Origin: Flavobacterium sp. NRK F7
GTDB lineage: Bacteria; Bacteroidota; Bacteroidia; Flavobacteriales; Flavobacteriaceae
Length of the DNA stretch: 64,000 nt
Direction: 5' to 3'
Assembly (NCBI RefSeq): GCF_024054195.1
Contig: NZ_JAMXLB010000001.1
Span: forward strand, 124,001-188,000
Positions 1,297-32,454 of this stretch are shown in pieces. The position numbers were made by a program, and so were the translations under genes. How positions within the stretch are numbered: position 1 is the first letter of the stretch; each line of letters starts with the position of its first letter. Below the pieces are notes generated by a model that saw only the letters and a program-made list of their open reading frames with translations, was not told the origin of the DNA and did not search any database.

Positions 1297-2937
1297 CTAA
1301 AACACAGTTCTAAAAGCAAAATCACCAAAAGTTTCGTTTTCTAGTTTTTCTTTCACATATTTCCCTAATAAAAGATCAACTTCTTCTAAAATTTGAGTCT
1401 CGGTTTGTTTTTCTTTGTATAGTTTATTCAATCTTTCCCCATAACGATCACCTCCTAGCATAAAATTATATTGTTCTGGACCTGTACCAATGAAACCCAA
1501 TTCAGCTACATAAGGACGCCCACAACCATTAGGACAGCCCGTCATTCTAATTGAAATTTCTTCGTTGGATAGATTGTATTTTTCTAATAAAGGCTCTATT
1601 TTGGTTACCAAAACTGGCAAATAACGTTGCGCCTCGGCTAAAGCCAAAGGACAAGTTGGTAAAGCAACACAAGCCATCGAACTTTTTCTAAGCGCACTAA
1701 CATGGGTTTCAATAACAAACTGCTTCAACAAGGCTTCTATTTTTTCTTTTTCACTATCTTTAATTTCACCTAGAATTAAATTTTGGTTCCCCGAAAAAAT
1801 AAAATTGGATATTTTTAATTTCGCTACTTCTAGTAAAAAAGCTTTTTGATTCGGCTGCACTACACCATGTTCCACAAAAAGAGTATAAAACCAATTCCCT
1901 TGATGGTTTTTTTCCCAACCATAACGATCATTTCTTTCTGTAAATTGAAAAGGTTTTGCTACCTCCAAAGAGAAACCAATTCTTTTTTCTAATTCTTTTT
2001 TAAATCCGTCAACTGTCAATTTTTCGATAGTATATTTCAAACGAGATAATTTTCGATCGGATCGGTTTCCAAAATCTCTTTGAATGGTTAGCACTTCATA
2101 AACTGCATTTAAGATTTTTTCTTCAGAATCGATAAACCCAAGTACATTTCCCAAACGCGGAAACGTATTTTCATTTCCATGTGTTGTTCCTAAACCACCA
2201 CCTACAACAAGATTAAACCCTTTCAACTCCTCATTTTCAACAACAGCAATTAACCCTAAATCATTGGTAAACAAATCCACATCATTACTTGGCGGAATGG
2301 CAATTGCTATTTTAAATTTTCTTGGCAAATAACGATCTTCATATAACGGATCTGCTTCAGCCGAACGCTCGTATATTTTTTCTCCATCAATAAAAACTTC
2401 ATAATACGATTGCGTTTTGGGCAATAATAAGGTTGAAATTTTATCCGCATAATCGTGAATTTGTTTATGCAATGGTGATAATTGCGGATGTGCAGAAACA
2501 ATAACATTTCTATTTACATCGCCACAAGCTGCGATTGAATCTAATTTTGCCACATTAAAAGATTGAATCGTAGGTCGCAATTGATGCTTTAACAACCCAT
2601 GTAGTTGAATGGTTTGTCGCGTAGTAATTTTCAACGTTCCGGTTCCATATGATTCTGAAGTTTCGTGAATGGCCAACCATTGATCTGCTGTAATTTGTCC
2701 GCCAGGAATACGCAAACGAATCATAAAAGAGTATAATTTGTCTAATTTTTTAGCCGCTCTTTCTGCTCTTCTGTCTCGGTCATCTTGCACATACATTCCA
2801 TGAAACTTAACCAATGTTTCATCATCTGGTCGTACATTACCGGTATGATTATCTAAGTCGATACTTTCTTTTAAAGTTCCTCGTAAACCGTCACTTTTTG
2901 TTTTTATAAATTCTACTGGAGATAATTTAGTGCTCAT
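1297..2937 (-). CDS. cysI: Assimilatory sulfite reductase hemoprotein (beta) subunit CysI
   Basis: It reduces sulfite to sulfide with six electrons using siroheme and a [4Fe-4S] cluster, in the cytoplasm. The cluster ligands are visible as C-x5-C (ACVALPTC) and C-x3-C (GCPNGC), separated by about 40 residues as in the family. The basic siroheme/sulfite region includes TTRQTIQLHG. I choose the ATG at 2935-2937 (MSTKLSPVEF), giving 546 residues. The reading frame stays open for another 21 codons upstream, but that stretch is Lys-rich and unlike the family N-terminus. It follows cysJ by about 90 bases and abuts the DUF2490 gene. With CysJ it forms the NADPH-dependent enzyme. Confidence 0.95.
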   Translation of the reverse strand: MSTKLSPVEFIKTKSDGLRGTLKESIDLDNHTGNVRPDDETLVKFHGMYVQDDRDRRAERAAKKLDKLYSFMIRLRIPGGQITADQWLAIHETSESYGTGTLKITTRQTIQLHGLLKHQLRPTIQSFNVAKLDSIAACGDVNRNVIVSAHPQLSPLHKQIHDYADKISTLLLPKTQSYYEVFIDGEKIYERSAEADPLYEDRYLPRKFKIAIAIPPSNDVDLFTNDLGLIAVVENEELKGFNLVVGGGLGTTHGNENTFPRLGNVLGFIDSEEKILNAVYEVLTIQRDFGNRSDRKLSRLKYTIEKLTVDGFKKELEKRIGFSLEVAKPFQFTERNDRYGWEKNHQGNWFYTLFVEHGVVQPNQKAFLLEVAKLKISNFIFSGNQNLILGEIKDSEKEKIEALLKQFVIETHVSALRKSSMACVALPTCPLALAEAQRYLPVLVTKIEPLLEKYNLSNEEISIRMTGCPNGCGRPYVAELGFIGTGPEQYNFMLGGDRYGERLNKLYKEKQTETQILEEVDLLLGKYVKEKLENETFGDFAFRTVF

Positions 2938-3025
2938 TTTTATTTTAAATTTGATTTTTAAATGTTCTCGATACATTTTTTGTTTTATTCCCTTCCACAA
3001 AAAACACGCGAACTGACGAATGGAT

Positions 3026-4723
3026 TTAATACACGTCTTTTTGATATTTTCCTGTTGCTTCTAACTCTTCTAAAATTTGTTTTGCTTCTGTTGTAGCTAT
3101 GTTTCTTTCTTGAGATAACACTTCCACTATTACTTCTTCCACATCAGCACTCATAGGATTCTTTTGTCCGCAGATATATAAATGAGCTCCGTTTTCAAGC
3201 CAAGCATTAAATTCTTTTGCTTTTTCTTTAATACGATCTTGCACATATATTTTACGCTCTTGATCTCTAGAAAAAGCCGTATCTAATTTTGTTAAAACGC
3301 CTGTTGCAATCCATTCTTGAATTTCGGTTTGATAATAGAAATCATGGACAAAATGTTGTTCCCCAAAGAACAGCCAGTTTTTACCTTCTGCTCCTGATGC
3401 ATCTCTTTGCGATAAAAAGCTTCTAAAAGGCGCAATTCCAGTTCCTGGACCAATCATTATAATGTCGGTATCTTCTTTAGGCAATCTGAAATTTTGATTT
3501 TTATGAATATAAAAATCGAGAGGTTCATGTAACGGAAAATCTGCTAAAAACTGTGACGCTAATCCTGTTTTAAGTTGATTGCTTACATTAAAAGTATTTA
3601 AATTTACGGTTAAATGTACTTCTCCATCATGTGCTTCATTGGAAGAAGCAATAGAATACAATCTTGGCGCAATGGGTAAAAGAATTTCTAATAAATTTTC
3701 AATTTGAAAAGAATCAGGTTTAGGATATACTTGCAAAACATCTATTAAATCTGCCCTTTCAAAAGTAATTTCAGCTTGCAATAAGTGTCCTAATTGTTCA
3801 AGTGAACGCTTACTAAGTCCCTTTATATTTTTTTCTTGTAACCAATTTTCCACTGTTTTTTGTTCGCCATTTATGGTAATTAACTTTTGAGCATCTGCTT
3901 GAAAATAATTCATAATAGCTTGAGTATCTTCTTTACTGTTTTTAGGAATAATTCCTAAAGCATCACCAGGTTCATACAAGACCTCTTCTTCTGTAACTAT
4001 CTCAATATGATAGGTTTTCTTATTAGAACCTATATCATTCAAGATAATCTTATTATTAATTTTCCCCACATAACTTTTCTTATGTGATGTTGTAGTAGCC
4101 ATCTTTGAAATCACAACTTCAGTAGTTGTTTGCTGTTTGAAAACTTGTTGCAAATCTTGTTCCCATTGTAACACATTTGGAGCAAAATCAACATCTGACT
4201 TTACTAAAGGTAACAAACGCTTTGCTCCTCTTTTGGATAAAATTTCATCCAATAAAACACCCGCGTGACAAAATAATGGATATGAAGAATCCCCTAAACC
4301 AAGAACCGCAAAGGAAATATGCTGCAAATCCAAATCATTTTTTTGTAGATAATTGTAAAACTGAATCGCGTTTTGAGGAAATTCACCTTCTCCTTGCGTA
4401 CTCATTACAAATAGGATAATAGTTTCTTTTTCCAATTTTGCTGTGTCGTATTGAAACACATCGATTGCTTTAGCTTGAATTTTATTTTTCTTGAAATTAG
4501 CCAGTAATTGAGAAGCTACTTTCTTAGAGTTCCCCGTTTCCGTTCCATAAATAATCAAGGGTTTAACAGCGACATTTTCTGTTGAAGCAATCACTGGAAT
4601 TTGAATTTCGTTTTTACTTCCCTCTAAAAAACCTGCCAAGTAGCCTTTTGTCCATATTATTTCCTCTCTAGAAGCATTTTGAACGAGTTGTTGTAAATAA
4701 TTTAATTTAGTATCAGATAGCAT
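3026..4723 (-). CDS. cysJ: Sulfite reductase flavoprotein (alpha) subunit CysJ
   Basis: It passes electrons from NADPH through FAD and FMN to CysI. The order of domains is: short helical N-terminus, flavodoxin domain with the FMN loop YGTETGNSKK near residue 60 and VMSTQGEGEFP, connecting domain, FAD domain (PRLYSIASS), and NADPH domain (IGPGTGIAPFRSF, then ICGQKNPMSADV). It ends in KYQKDVY, the expected C-terminus. The ATG at 4721-4723 (MLSDTKLNYLQQL) gives 565 residues. The upstream extension MKPHPILIII lies inside cobA and is rejected. The chosen start overlaps the cobA stop by 11 bases, which suggests translational coupling. Confidence 0.95.
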   Translation of the reverse strand: MLSDTKLNYLQQLVQNASREEIIWTKGYLAGFLEGSKNEIQIPVIASTENVAVKPLIIYGTETGNSKKVASQLLANFKKNKIQAKAIDVFQYDTAKLEKETIILFVMSTQGEGEFPQNAIQFYNYLQKNDLDLQHISFAVLGLGDSSYPLFCHAGVLLDEILSKRGAKRLLPLVKSDVDFAPNVLQWEQDLQQVFKQQTTTEVVISKMATTTSHKKSYVGKINNKIILNDIGSNKKTYHIEIVTEEEVLYEPGDALGIIPKNSKEDTQAIMNYFQADAQKLITINGEQKTVENWLQEKNIKGLSKRSLEQLGHLLQAEITFERADLIDVLQVYPKPDSFQIENLLEILLPIAPRLYSIASSNEAHDGEVHLTVNLNTFNVSNQLKTGLASQFLADFPLHEPLDFYIHKNQNFRLPKEDTDIIMIGPGTGIAPFRSFLSQRDASGAEGKNWLFFGEQHFVHDFYYQTEIQEWIATGVLTKLDTAFSRDQERKIYVQDRIKEKAKEFNAWLENGAHLYICGQKNPMSADVEEVIVEVLSQERNIATTEAKQILEELEATGKYQKDVY

Positions 4724-5531
4724 TTTGTAAAAGGGTTTTATGATTATCAAAATAGGATGTGGTTTCATTTTGTTCTTTAAACCAAGAAAATTCGTGGTGC
4801 AAATTCACCACATTACCTACAATCAATAGTGTAGGCACATATTCAAAGCTTGGTAACGATTTTTTTTCTAAGTCTGTAAATTGAAATACTTGGGTTTTTT
4901 GCTCTGGTGTTGTCGCTTGTTGCACAACAGCTAAACCTTTATTTTTTTCAACTCCGTGAAGTATAAATTGATTCACCAAAGTATTCAAACGTTGCCCACT
5001 CATATAAAAAACAAGCGTATCTTCGGTACTAGACCAGTTTCTCCATTGTTCATGGGTAACATTTTTCAAATCATATAAAGTAAGAAAACGCACTCCTCTT
5101 GAATACGACCTAGCTGTTAGCGGTATCCCTGTATAAGCAGCAGCACCAAAAGCAGCAGAAATACCAGGAACAATTTCATAGGGAATTTGGTTTTCAACCA
5201 AAACTTGCAATTCGTCTAAAACATTTGAAAACAAAGAAACATCACCTCCTTTTAATCGAAGCACTAACTTTCCAAGACTAGCAAATTCAACCATTAATTC
5301 ATTAATTTCACTTTGTGGCGTATGAATTCCTTTGGAACATTGTTTACCTACATAAATTATAGTCGCCTCTTTTTTTGCATATTCATCTACTAGAATGGGA
5401 GAAACCAATCGGTCTATTAAAATCACATCTGCCACTTGCAAATATTTAAGTGCTTTTACACTTATTAAATCAGGATCCCCTGGACCTGCACCAGCAAGTA
5501 TTACCTTACCTTTTGTTGAAATTTGTATCAT
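4713..5531 (-). CDS. cobA: Uroporphyrinogen-III C-methyltransferase (SUMT)
   Basis: It transfers two methyl groups from SAM to uroporphyrinogen III to make precorrin-2, the siroheme precursor. The tetrapyrrole methylase signature is clear: VILAGAGPGDPDLISVKAL near the N-terminus, LVLRLKGGDVSLFS for the SAM loop, and VPGISAAFGAAAYTGIPLTAR. At 272 residues it is a stand-alone SUMT, so dehydrogenase and ferrochelatase steps are on a separate protein (the partial gene at the left edge). It lies between cysteine synthase and cysJ in the same operon and links siroheme supply to sulfite reductase production. Confidence 0.93.
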   Translation of the reverse strand: MIQISTKGKVILAGAGPGDPDLISVKALKYLQVADVILIDRLVSPILVDEYAKKEATIIYVGKQCSKGIHTPQSEINELMVEFASLGKLVLRLKGGDVSLFSNVLDELQVLVENQIPYEIVPGISAAFGAAAYTGIPLTARSYSRGVRFLTLYDLKNVTHEQWRNWSSTEDTLVFYMSGQRLNTLVNQFILHGVEKNKGLAVVQQATTPEQKTQVFQFTDLEKKSLPSFEYVPTLLIVGNVVNLHHEFSWFKEQNETTSYFDNHKTLLQNAI

Positions 5532-5643: not shown

Positions 5644-6555
5644 TCAAAACAAATCTTCTACAGAAAGATAACGCTCACCTGTATCATAATTAAATGTCAG
5701 CACCACTGCATCATCAGGTAGTGTTGCTATTTTTTTTGCGACAGCAGCTAAAGAAGCACCCGTTGAAATTCCCACAAAAACACCTTCCTCCAAAGCAATT
5801 TTACCAGCAAAATCATACGCTTCGTCTTTAGAAACAGAAATGACTTCATCAATAAATTGAGCATGATAATTTCCTGGAACAAAACCTGCTCCAATACCTT
5901 GCAAAGGATGCGGACCTGGAGCTCCACCACTTAAAACTGGAGACAATTCAGGTTCCACGGCAATTACTTTCAATTTTGGAAATTTTTTCTTTAATACCTC
6001 AGCAACACCAGAAATGTGTCCACCCGTTCCTACACCAGTGATAATATAATCCAAACCCTCTGGAAAATCTTCGATAATTTCTAAAGCGGTTGTTTTCTTG
6101 TGCGCCTCCACATTAGCCGGATTATCAAATTGAGAAGGCGACCAAGCATTTGGGATTTCACGAACCAATTCAGCAGCTCTTTCAATAGCACCTTTCATTC
6201 CTTTCTCTCTAGCGGTCAATTCGAATTGGGCTCCATAAATCTCCATTAATTTTCTTCTCTCCACACTCATAGACTCAGGCATTACCAAAATAACTCGATA
6301 TCCTTTCACGGCAGCAACTAATGAAAGTCCAATCCCTGTATTTCCAGAAGTAGGCTCAATAATTACACTTTCAGGATTAAGTAATCCTTTTTTTTCAGCA
6401 TCTTCAATCATACCTAACGCAATCCTGTCTTTAATACTTCCTCCAGGATTTGCTTTTTCCAATTTGATCCAAATATTTTTATTTGAACCGTACATTCGAT
6501 TAATTTTAATTACTGGGGTATTCCCAATTGTATTTAAGATATTTTCTACTTTCAT
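5644..6555 (-). CDS. cysK: Cysteine synthase (O-acetylserine sulfhydrylase)
   Basis: This PLP enzyme makes cysteine from O-acetylserine and sulfide. The PLP lysine sits in [13 protein letters not shown] (around residue 43), the substrate loop is [10 protein letters not shown], the phosphate loop is [10 protein letters not shown], and the C-terminal PLP-ring contact motif is [19 protein letters not shown]. The length, 303 residues, is normal. A CysM-type enzyme is an alternative name, as sequence reading alone does not separate CysK from CysM. It starts 10 bases after the serine acetyltransferase stop, so the two final steps of cysteine synthesis are encoded together at the head of the operon. 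Confidence 0.93.
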
Positions 6556-6565
6556 ATGTTTTAAA

Positions 6566-7390
6566 TTAAATTATAAAGTTTATAGGTTCACTTGATTTGT
6601 GTTTTGATTTTACAATAGTTTCACTTTTATGATACACTAAGGTTTCTTCTTGAATGGTTTCAGTTAACCAAACATTCCCTCCAATTACCGAACCTTTGCC
6701 GATAACAGTATTTCCTCCCAAAATAGTTGCATTTGCATAAATAATAACATTATCTTCTATCGTAGGATGTCTTTTTTGAGTAGCTTTATCTTTACTGACA
6801 CTTAATGCGCCCAATGTTACACCTTGATATATTTTTACATCGTTCCCTATAATTGCAGTTTCACCAATAACAATTCCTGTTCCATGGTCAATAAAAAAAC
6901 GTTGCCCAATACTAGCCGCTGGATGTATATCTATTCCCGTTTTTCCATGTGCATATTCAGACAAAACTCTCGGTAAAATTGCAACTCCCTTATTCCAAAG
7001 GTTATTTGCAATTCGATAGACTGCAATAGCAAAAAAACCAGGATAGGAAAGTAAGACTTCATCCTTAGATTTTGCAGCTGGATCAAACTCGATAATGGCT
7101 TCCAAATCATCAAGTAAATCACTATGAATGATGATTAAATCTTCAAACAAACTCGTTGCAGTAGTAATTTTATCCAAAACACCAACTTGAGATAGAAACA
7201 ACTGCAAATCCAATTGCAAAGCCTCTTCTGTATGTTTAAACAATTCTATATTCGTACATTCACCACTTTTACAAAACAACCACGCAAACAATTCCTCAAT
7301 CCAAAATTCTATTTTCTTCTTAGTAATAGATAGGCTCTGAGTAGAATTATTTTTTTCAAATAAGACAGCACTGATAGTCATTTGTTTCAT
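6566..7390 (-). CDS. cysE: Serine O-acetyltransferase (CysE/EpsC type)
   Basis: It makes O-acetylserine from serine and acetyl-CoA. The N-terminal half is helical. The C-terminal half is a left-handed beta-helix with hexapeptide repeats, from [20 protein letters not shown] through [21 protein letters not shown] to [17 protein letters not shown], including the catalytic HGTG region. It is 274 residues, of the longer Bacteroidota form. The start at 7388-7390 (MKQMTIS) is the first after the leader terminator; Met4 is a possible alternative. As first gene of the operon it is controlled directly by the upstream attenuator, which makes sense because this is the committed and usually feedback-inhibited step. 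Confidence 0.93.
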
Positions 7391-7423
7391 ATACTTGGTA
7401 ACTTAATCGATAGTGTGTTAAAC

Positions 7424-7450
7424 AAAAAAACCTCTGCATTTCTGCAGAGG
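7424..7450 (-). terminator. Intrinsic terminator in the cys operon leader (attenuator)
   Basis: Read on the minus strand, 7450-7431 forms a perfect 8-bp stem CCTCTGCA/TGCAGAGG with a GAAA loop, followed by seven U (7430-7424). It lies 30 bases after the stop codon of the Cys/Met-rich leader peptide and 34 bases before cysE. The 5' arm can pair instead with GCAGAG at 7501-7496, inside the leader reading frame, so the terminator and an antiterminator are mutually exclusive. Confidence 0.85.
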
Positions 7451-7479
7451 TCCTATAACTCGTATAATAATTATTATTT

Positions 7480-7548
7480 TTAAGCAATAGAGATACTCTG
7501 CGGATTTTTCCACATCATACAACACATATTGCATACGAATAACATCAT
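7480..7548 (-). CDS. Cys/Met-rich leader peptide of the cys operon
   Basis: This is a 22-codon reading frame with start ATG at 7546-7548 (a second ATG follows at once) and stop TAA at 7480-7482. The middle reads VCNMCCMMWKNPQ: three Cys and, with the two start Mets, five Met codons in a peptide this small, ending in SISIA. It is preceded at a suitable distance by a perfect -7 promoter box and followed by a terminator hairpin that competes with pairing to its own codons 15-18. That layout is the classic amino-acid attenuator: a ribosome stalled at Cys or Met codons would leave the GCAGAG segment free to pair with the terminator arm. Translation itself is inferred. I do not recall a described leader of this sequence. 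Confidence 0.75.
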   Translation of the reverse strand: MMLFVCNMCCMMWKNPQSISIA

Positions 7549-7573
7549 TTTTATTTCTAGTATTTATTTGTGT

Positions 7574-7581
7574 CAAAAGTA
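7574..7581 (-). promoter_or_regulatory. -7 promoter element of the cys operon
   Basis: The minus strand reads TACTTTTG, a perfect match to the Bacteroidota -7 consensus TAnnTTTG. Transcription would start around 7566-7570, about 20 bases before the leader peptide. The -33 region is T-rich without a clear TTTG. Confidence 0.65.
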
Positions 7582-7784
7582 GAAAAAAAAACTATTTAAA
7601 AAAACTAAATAGTATAATTTTCTAATTTTTACACATTTAAAAGTCAAAAGCAAATTAAAAAACTAAAAAACAACTTTTAATCCATTTTAAAAACCAAAAA
7701 AACCAACCATTCTAGTTTTTAATTAAAAATGTTAATATATTTAAAAAATAAAAACGAATCGCTTTTATATTCGAATTGATTTCC
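7582..7784. other. AT-rich divergent spacer
   Basis: This stretch lies between the cys operon and metK promoters and is almost pure A/T with long A and T runs. I see no reading frame, hairpin or repeat of note in it. It may act as UP-type or operator DNA for the two divergent promoters. Confidence 0.4.
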
Positions 7785-7792: not shown

Positions 7793-7806
7793 CCCCATTA
7801 ATAAAA

Positions 7807-7898
7807 AAGAGGAAAAATTTGAACTGATTGCAACCTCTTAATACTATTTGTTAGTATTAAAAAAAATGCTAAAGCAGTACCTACTACTTTAGTATTTT
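7807..7898 (+). promoter_or_regulatory. SAM-II-type riboswitch upstream of metK
   Basis: The P1 stem is AAGAGG (7807-7812) with CCTCTT (7834-7839). It encloses a loop containing ATTTGAACTGATTGCAA, which matches the conserved SAM-II (metA motif) loop. Downstream is the conserved 3' segment AATGCTAAAG (7865-7874), whose UAAA can pair with UUUG in the loop to close the pseudoknot. An extra 7-bp hairpin (7840-7846 with 7852-7858) is inserted in the linker. The 3' segment also forms a 12-bp alternative stem, 7863-7874 with 7887-7898, that excludes the pseudoknot. SAM-II elements control SAM and methionine genes in Alphaproteobacteria and Bacteroidota. metK, which makes SAM, follows 46 bases later. 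Confidence 0.8.
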
Positions 7899-7944: not shown

Positions 7945-9195
7945 ATGGCTTATTTATTTACGTCAGAGTCTGTGAGTGAAGGACATCCAGACAAAGTAGC
8001 TGACCAAATTAGTGACGCATTAATTGATAACTTTTTAGCATTTGACCCTGAGTCAAAGGTTGCTTGTGAAACCCTAGTTACTACTGGCCAAGTAATATTA
8101 GCAGGTGAAGTCAAATCCAAAACATATCTAGATGTACAACAAATTGCAAGAGAAGTAATTCGTAAAATTGGTTATACCAAAAGTGAATATATGTTTGAAG
8201 CAGATTCTTGCGGTGTTCTTTCTGCCATTCATGAGCAATCTGCCGATATTAATCAAGGTGTTGATAGAGCCACAAAAGAGGAACAGGGAGCTGGAGATCA
8301 AGGGATGATGTTTGGTTATGCAACTAATGAAACAGAAGAATACATGCCGTTAGCATTAAAGCTTTCTCATGAAATTCTTCAAGTATTAGCAGAATTAAGA
8401 AGGGAAAATCGAGATATTACTTACTTAAGACCTGATGCAAAATCCCAAGTAACATTAGAATACAATAACGATAACAAACCTGTTCGTATTGATGCTATTG
8501 TTGTTTCCACACAACATGATGATTTTGCTGATGAACCAACTATGCTAGCAAAGATTAAAAAAGACATTATCGAAATTTTAATCCCAAGAGTTATTGCTAA
8601 AAATCCACAATACGCTCATCTTTTCAACGATAGTATTAAATATCATATTAATCCTACTGGAAAATTTGTAATTGGCGGACCTCATGGTGATACTGGTTTA
8701 ACGGGTAGAAAGATTATCGTAGACACATATGGCGGAAAAGGAGCTCATGGTGGTGGTGCTTTTTCTGGAAAAGACCCAAGTAAAGTGGATCGTTCAGCAG
8801 CTTATGCAACGAGACATATTGCTAAGAACTTAGTAGCAGCTGGAGTAGCAGATGAAATTTTAGTACAAGTTTCATATGCTATTGGAGTAGCAGAACCAAC
8901 TAATATTTATGTAAATACTTATGGAACAAGTAAATTAAATAGCACAGATGGTGAAATTGCTAAAAAAGTAGCTGAAATATTTGACATGAGACCTTACTTT
9001 ATTGAGCAACGCTTAAAATTAAGAAACCCTATTTACAGTGAAACGGCAGCTTACGGCCACATGGGTAGAAAATCAGAAACCGTAACAAAAACTTTTTCAG
9101 CTCCTGGTGGTAATGAAAAAACAGTTACTGTAGAATTGTTTACATGGGAAAAATTAGACTTTGTAGATAAAATTAAGAGTGCATTCGGACTTTAA
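7945..9195 (+). CDS. metK: S-adenosylmethionine synthetase
   Basis: It makes SAM from methionine and ATP in the cytoplasm. The first motif [20 protein letters not shown] holds the ATP/Mg site. [12 protein letters not shown] is the signature hexapeptide region, and [18 protein letters not shown] the phosphate-binding loop. The length of 416 residues is normal for the Bacteroidota form. It stands alone: a SAM-II riboswitch precedes it and a strong bidirectional terminator follows. It is divergent from the cys operon, so enzymes for cysteine synthesis and for the final methionine derivative share one control region. Confidence 0.97.
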
Positions 9196-26419: not shown

Positions 26420-26432
26420 GTTATTTCTTTTG

Positions 26433-26521
26433 TGTTAGCGGTTGTAACGGCATCCTTTTTTGTTTTCAAGAAACAAAAAAGATAGAGTGAAAGACGCGAC
26501 CTGAAAGGGAACACCCAAAGG
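26433..26521. repeat. Intergenic palindromic element
   Basis: This segment has an 11-bp inverted repeat, CTTTTTTGTTT (26455-26465) with AAACAAAAAAG (26471-26481). It is flanked by TAGCGGTTGTAACGGCATC on one side and a GC-richer tail GACGCGACCTGAAAGGGAAC on the other. Both flanks are unlike the local AT-rich spacers. From memory, similar composite sequences recur between genes in Flavobacterium genomes. The hairpin could serve as terminator for the DUF5686 gene or the glycosylase. Confidence 0.5.
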
Positions 26522-32266: not shown

Positions 32267-32454
32267 TTATTTTTGGAGCGAATGTTTTTGGTATTTTTGC
32301 CAACCATTTTCCTGCTGTACGCTTTATTTTTTATGCAGATTACATCCGCATAAAAGATATCGCTACCATCAGGGCTAAATAGAATCATAGTTTATTTTAA
32401 TAATCTTTAAGTATTGTTTTTTATATTCAATCAGTACTTGTTACGAATTATATA

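Follow-up and report, generated by a model that had tools for sequence, protein, structure and literature searches.

The classical form of leader-peptide control is found in the ribosome-mediated trp/his-type attenuators of Proteobacteria (general reference, PMC9723704). Canestrari (2020) reportedly treats the polycysteine leader ORFs found ahead of cys operons in mycobacteria. According to the accessible part of another report, mycobacterial cys operons carry polycysteine leader ORFs and no conserved terminator hairpins, and an involvement of Rho was suggested (PMC1262725). Attenuation was proposed for uORFC-8-2, a motif located ahead of cysS in Rhodobacterales, and Met codons are unmentioned in the accessible text (PMC8632094). 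In the genus Flavobacterium, short-peptide attenuation was suggested for amino-acid operons of Flavobacterium psychrophilum, including elements upstream of pheA and hisG; cys and met operons are unnamed in the main text (PMC9723704). Salmonella mgtCBR is described, in the accessible part of the source, as having tandem attenuators on a single transcript, each with a leader ORF, that respond to ATP and proline (PMC3641672).

The element described here lies in the window (the whole stretch of 64,000 nucleotides of DNA that was analysed). Like the trp/his attenuators, it has a small upstream ORF whose codons include those for the amino-acid product of the operon, strands that can pair as 1:2, 2:3 and 3:4, and an intrinsic terminator between the ORF and the first gene; unlike them, it combines Cys with Met codons, places strand 2 inside the ORF, belongs to Bacteroidota and has tandem copies. 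With the mycobacterial polycysteine leaders it shares a Cys-codon ORF upstream of a cys operon (PMC1262725), but it differs from that type, as far as the accessible text describes it, in having an intrinsic terminator and an antiterminator. The window leader, with three Cys codons, internal Met codons and a terminator, falls outside a Cys-only mycobacterial type defined by the lack of Met and terminator. Like the window element, the uORFC-8-2 motif combines a uORF that has two Cys codons in tandem with an intrinsic terminator, but, in the accessible text, phylum, gene and structure are different (PMC8632094). The tandem units of mgtCBR sense different signals, as described in the part of the source considered, whereas both units of the tandem pairs reported here carry Cys/Met codons (PMC3641672). 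The mechanism, leader-peptide attenuation, is a known one, and its Cys/Met variant in Bacteroidota was found to be undescribed: no description was found in the literature searched, which covered few subscription journals. If the assignment is correct, sulfur assimilation in a large environmental phylum is controlled through the translation of short Cys/Met ORFs, instead of or beside a protein regulator. Many short ORFs that lack annotation would then gain a functional label, and nature would provide a series of leaders (Cys-only, Cys plus Met, Met-only, single and tandem) suited to tests of tuning to one or two amino acids.

On the minus strand of the window, a TAnnTTTG box, which we take to be the Bacteroidota-type -7 consensus, is followed by a 22-codon ORF, a linker, a hairpin of 8 bp with a GAAA loop (7442-7439) and U7, and the cys operon (Table 1). 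A sequence-only reading had listed the box, the ORF and its stop, the hairpin, the seven U and cysE, and all of these coordinates hold. The complementarity that it noted between CTCTGC in the terminator 5' arm (7449-7444) and GCAGAG (7501-7496) was confirmed in the sequence, with GCAGAG located in codons 16-18 and not 15-18. That reading contained neither hairpin 1:2 (TGTGGA/AAAA/TCCGCA, 7514-7499) nor the stretch that lengthens the antiterminator, CUAU (7490-7487) with AUAG in the linker. A TAnnTTTG box occurred within 80 nt upstream of 48/209 leader ORFs, against 9/209 reversed sequences, and is supportive evidence, far from general. No Rfam 15 family reached its gathering score over window positions 7390-7600, the best sub-threshold matches being OmrA-B (25.8 bits, 40 needed) and Phe_leader (24.1 bits, 55 needed). 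Elsewhere in the window, a SAM-II riboswitch (Rfam RF01726, 61.7 bits) was found at 7803-7882 (+), ahead of the metK-like gene. This gene neighbourhood recurs in locus L004 and, together with a SAM-II match, in L343. Two Flavo-1 RNAs were also present in the window, at 32304-32380 (-) and 26430-26505 (+).

Table 1. Features of the candidate attenuator, its operon and neighbouring elements (window positions unless another contig is given).
Feature	Position	Strand	Basis or remark
-7 promoter box TACTTTTG (TAnnTTTG)	7574..7581	-	sequence
Leader ORF MMLFVCNMCCMMWKNPQSISIA, 22 codons + TAA (ATG 7548-7546, TAA 7482-7480)	7480..7548	-	locus L002
Sensor codons C6 N7 M8 C9 C10 M11 M12	7513..7533	-	conserved in relatives
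Strand 1, TGTGGA, over Met12-Trp13	7509..7514	-	pairs with 7504-7499
Strand 2, TCCGCAGAG	7496..7504	-	kept in type-1 leaders
CTATTG, extension of strand 2	7485..7490	-	predicted fold and covariation with linker
Strand 3, CCTCTGCA, terminator 5' arm and partner of strand 2	7443..7450	-	sequence, pairing, predicted fold
Strand 4, TGCAGAGG, terminator 3' arm	7431..7438	-	sequence, predicted fold
Terminator U7 tract	7424..7430	-	sequence
Serine O-acetyltransferase (cysE)	6566..7390	-	NF041874 (EpsC) above cut-off; TIGR01172 cysE below cut-off
Cysteine synthase cysK	5644..6555	-	TIGR01139 above cut-off
Uroporphyrinogen-III C-methyltransferase (siroheme branch)	4713..5531	-	TIGR01469 above cut-off
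Sulfite reductase flavoprotein, cysJ-like	3026..4768	-	full-length match to TIGR01931, below cut-off
Sulfite reductase hemoprotein cysI, start codon provisional	1297..3000	-	NF010029 above cut-off
metK (named by eye), divergent neighbour	7945-9195	+	leader region lies between metK and the cys operon
Own-genome metY tandem pair	G000:C1 about 123484-123761, just left of window		loci L194, L342

From these features and their relatives, the window element is, with high probability, a trp-type ribosome-mediated transcription attenuator sensing charged tRNA-Cys and tRNA-Met. The analysis yielded the ORF, three alternative stems with evolutionary support, and the gene contexts; leader translation, stalling, termination and the response to Cys and Met would follow the classical scheme. 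RNA polymerase would transcribe the leader while a ribosome translates the 22-codon ORF. With charged tRNA-Cys or tRNA-Met scarce, the ribosome would stall at Cys9-Met12 and cover strand 1, leaving strand 2 (UCCGCAGAG...CUAUUG) free to pair with strand 3 (...AUAGGACCUCUGC); strand 4 would then stay single-stranded and cysE-cysK-cobA-cysJ-cysI would be transcribed. With both charged tRNAs plentiful, the ribosome would reach the stop codon and cover strand 2, and 3:4 would form, with termination at U7. If the ORF were left untranslated, hairpins 1:2 and 3:4 would form together and the operon would be off. The whole leader is predicted to fold as 1:2 plus 3:4 (-39.4). When strand 1 was masked (Cys10 in the A site) and strand 4 was absent, 2:3 formed in the predicted fold; with strand 4 made, 3:4 was preferred even when strand 1 was masked. 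The switch must therefore be kinetic, as it is in classical attenuators. With the textbook ribosome footprints used, a ribosome halted anywhere from Cys9 to Met12 would cover strand 1, and a stall at Cys6 may come too early to do so.

At the window locus alone, the terminator 5' arm pairs with the leader at -10.6 kcal/mol (z -2.4, p 0.045 against dinucleotide shuffles), only modestly better than the shuffles, and evidence was for this reason sought in relatives. The loci scanned were 80 named loci with a CysE relative, 50 Flavobacterium loci and 28 drawn across the phylum, giving 152 distinct cysE loci in which a terminator-like hairpin was sought in the 500 nt upstream. An intrinsic-terminator-like hairpin was found in 44/152 loci, and in 32 loci a Cys-rich ORF came before it. 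Counted by terminator, a Cys-rich short ORF preceded 37/52 terminators upstream of cysE, where dinucleotide shuffles of the same stretches expect 2.9, and only 3/139 control terminators elsewhere in the same loci. A Cys leader is thus the rule where a terminator precedes cysE, although most cysE loci (120/152 distinct loci) are without the element. Since units were found by a rule asking for Cys, or Cys/Met, richness, that richness counts as evidence only in comparison with the shuffle and terminator controls. Outside Flavobacterium, the leader peptides had little in common but Cys, with runs such as CCCCCC in L021 and L029. In L029, from an uncultured Bacteroidota genome, where cysE has Cys leaders in tandem, a SAM (S-box) riboswitch was also observed close to these leaders, at 1837-1955 (-).

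The antiterminator pairing was evaluated in 85 leader-terminator units, retained from 90 raw units after four off-target strands were dropped by hand, together with one unit lacking a downstream ORF. The 5' arm paired better with its own leader than with shuffled leaders in 57/85 units (p <= 0.05; median z -2.5); the remaining 28 were individually non-significant, many of them A-rich "leader 2" units. Across 17 arm groups, pairing with the own arm averaged -10.5 kcal/mol, against -7.1 with the arms of other groups, and in 20,000 permutations the observed centred mean was never reached. The own arm was the best-ranked partner in 9/17 groups, and in three groups it ranked no better than sixth. 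By pairing with the linker, the CTATTG segment lengthens the antiterminator. Its own linker was a better partner than foreign ones among 77 family sequences (0/20,000 permutations), and covariation of extension and linker persisted in 24 diverse sequences (1/20,000 permutations). CTATTG was also considered as a conserved pause site and rejected: it lies 12-13 nt after CCGCA in 69/84 type-1 leaders, this spacing differs by one according to the reading frame, and the linker pairing explains its conservation at least partly. A 2:3 antiterminator that excludes the terminator is conserved or co-varying, as in trp/his-type attenuators, with the 28/85 single units as the exception. The trp/his-type attenuation proposed in the sequence-only reading is supported, since the terminator, strand 2, the reading frame and the Cys/Met codons are conserved or co-vary in relatives; a check for non-conservation of the frame and the competing stems did not refute it.

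In Flavobacterium, a covariance model built from a 22-sequence alignment and searched in 249 genomes at E <= 0.001 matched 204/249, with 166 at 1e-8 or better (count from table) and 45/249 without a match. A CCTCTG arm was present in 88/209 units, 82 of these 88 being in the type-1 set, which was picked partly by strand 2, so that conservation of 2:3 inside the set is partly by construction. The idea that the CCTCTG type occurs more widely in the order was rejected: 32/146 genomes matched, 16 of them Flavobacterium, and the other 16 (best E-values 3.5e-5 to 9e-4) were taken as chance. In 84 type-1 leaders, counts that take in related species, the strand CCGCAGAG encoded PQ(R/S) in 34 (frame 0), SA(E/G) in 49 (frame 1) and RRD in 1 (frame 2). 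What these sequences conserve in strand 2 is the RNA and not the peptide. The ORF stop and the C-terminal Ile-Ala/Val are kept despite the frame changes (codon 21 Ile in 56/62), which requires compensating indels. Among 62 distinct 22-codon homologues, codon 6 was Cys in 46/62, codon 8 Met in 55/62, codon 9 Cys in 55/62, codon 11 Met in 48/62 and codon 12 Met in 56/62, while codon 10 was Cys in 34, Met in 11 and Arg in 9. The Cys codons were kept with synonymous changes, TGT and TGC both being used. The exact pattern TGYNNNATGTGYTGYATGATGTGG, suggested earlier as a search criterion upstream of cysE, was present in only 4/60 relatives and proved too strict.

Hairpin 1:2 (UGUGGA/UCCGCA) completes the trp-like set of 1:2, 2:3 and 3:4, and the evidence for such a hairpin over the sensor region covers the Flavobacterium CCTCTG type. 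Compensatory forms of the stem were observed: TGTGGA/TCCGCA in the window, TGTGGT/ACCGCA in L009 and TGTGGAA/TTCCGCA, CGGA/TCCG and GGAT/ATCC elsewhere. The stem scored above the mean of shuffled upstream sequence in 77/77 relatives (12.4 against 2.9 on average). Codon 13, in the 5' arm of 1:2, was Trp in 42 of 62 homologues, Pro in 7, Ser in 6, Gly in 4 and Met in 2. Trp was rejected as a third sensed amino acid, since codon 13 varies while the 1:2 stem is kept; judging from these alignments, the Trp codon probably belongs to the hairpin and not to the sensor.

The gene contexts were evaluated in 209 units, several with partial downstream genes below NCBIfam cut-offs. Downstream genes were metY (119 units), cysE (34), cysH (21), osmC-like (11), TonB/other (7), EamA (4), metX-like (3), cystathionine-synthase-like (3), cysD-like (1), homoserine-dehydrogenase-like (1) and unclassified (5). 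Mean Cys/Met numbers per leader were 3.9/1.6 for cysE, 3.6/2.1 for cysH, 3.6/4.6 for metY and 0/5.0 for cystathionine-synthase-like genes. Met minus Cys was different for the 56 Cys genes and the 137 Met genes, with a Mann-Whitney p of 9e-16, a value that ignores species relatedness. Codon content tracks the gene: mostly Cys for cysE/cysH, Cys plus Met for metY and Met-only for the cystathionine-synthase-like genes. Elsewhere in the genomes that have the Met-only leaders (L298, L307 and L315), leaders of the same type do contain Cys (L257, L264 and L260). Two units within 250 nt were found on 60/146 locus-strands, most upstream of metY (38). The genome of the window has such a pair between the cys operon and metY, MRTIMCMMCKMMWNIPQR followed by MKNNNKMCCMMMMCMCAPP. 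In metY leader 2, strand 2 is CCAAAAG and extends over the final Cys-Gln-Lys codons; in the own-genome copy CCAAAAG lies just past the stop codon. That one RNA family runs the Flavobacterium sulfur-amino-acid regulon is slightly favoured, with a Cys/Met mix that suits each enzyme (Cys for cysE/cysH, both for metY and Met only for the step consuming Cys to make Met), tandem units that multiply control and, in further Bacteroidota, Cys leaders that follow the same logic with a different sequence. Outside Flavobacterium, metY leaders were sought in 26 loci (L195-L220) and set aside, the finding rule returning only L209, a doubtful unit whose next ORF is DUF4395. At the own-genome cysH cluster (L341), no Cys leader of this type was found; a 137-aa ORF upstream of that cluster (1411-1824, -) looks by eye like an Rrf2-type regulator.

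The dual Cys/Met sensor proposed in the sequence-only reading is favoured by the tracking of Met content with the downstream gene, and is less firm than attenuation itself. A real attenuator that senses Cys only, with Met codons carried along for other reasons, is unlikely though deserving of attention. The operon product is Cys, several leaders outside Flavobacterium are Cys runs (CCCCCC in L021 and L029) and 12/55 cysE/cysH leaders lack internal Met (9/34 cysE and 3/21 cysH). In Flavobacterium, however, Met11 and Met12 occupy the position at which a stall would mask strand 1 and are kept (48/62 and 56/62), none of the 119 metY leaders lacks Met, and the cystathionine-synthase-like leaders are Met-only in 3/3, probably close relatives for which Met/Cys richness is part of the finding rule.

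Stalling might instead be caused by the nascent peptide, as a thiol- or metal-sensing arrest peptide and not through shortage of charged tRNA. Cys-rich peptides can bind metals or oxidise, and residues 5-12 are well conserved within Flavobacterium, but peptides of the wider set share little besides Cys or Met and the identified downstream genes are largely for sulfur amino acids, not metal or redox functions; the exceptions (TonB receptor, OsmC-like and EamA) are mostly in met contexts themselves. This makes an arrest peptide very improbable. A plain terminator, acting on an upstream transcript or as a constitutive block, beside a chance ORF is scarcely credible: AT-rich DNA gives many short ORFs and terminators, but the shuffle and real-terminator controls, the synonymous codon conservation and the own-versus-foreign pairing all speak against it. 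A dual-sensing attenuator remains the preferred reading.

Several further contexts were observed. In L165, a 63-aa ORF without a Pfam match (1240-1428, +) lies between leader 2 and metY, and L166 and L178 show a comparable short ORF. On the minus strand of L260 and L280, EamA-type transporter genes, possibly for Cys/Met export, have two Cys/Met leaders with terminators of other sequence. Type-1 leaders stand directly upstream of a TonB-dependent receptor in L337 (with a Plug domain), L323, L326, L334 and L336, and leader 2 and metY follow further on in at least G006.
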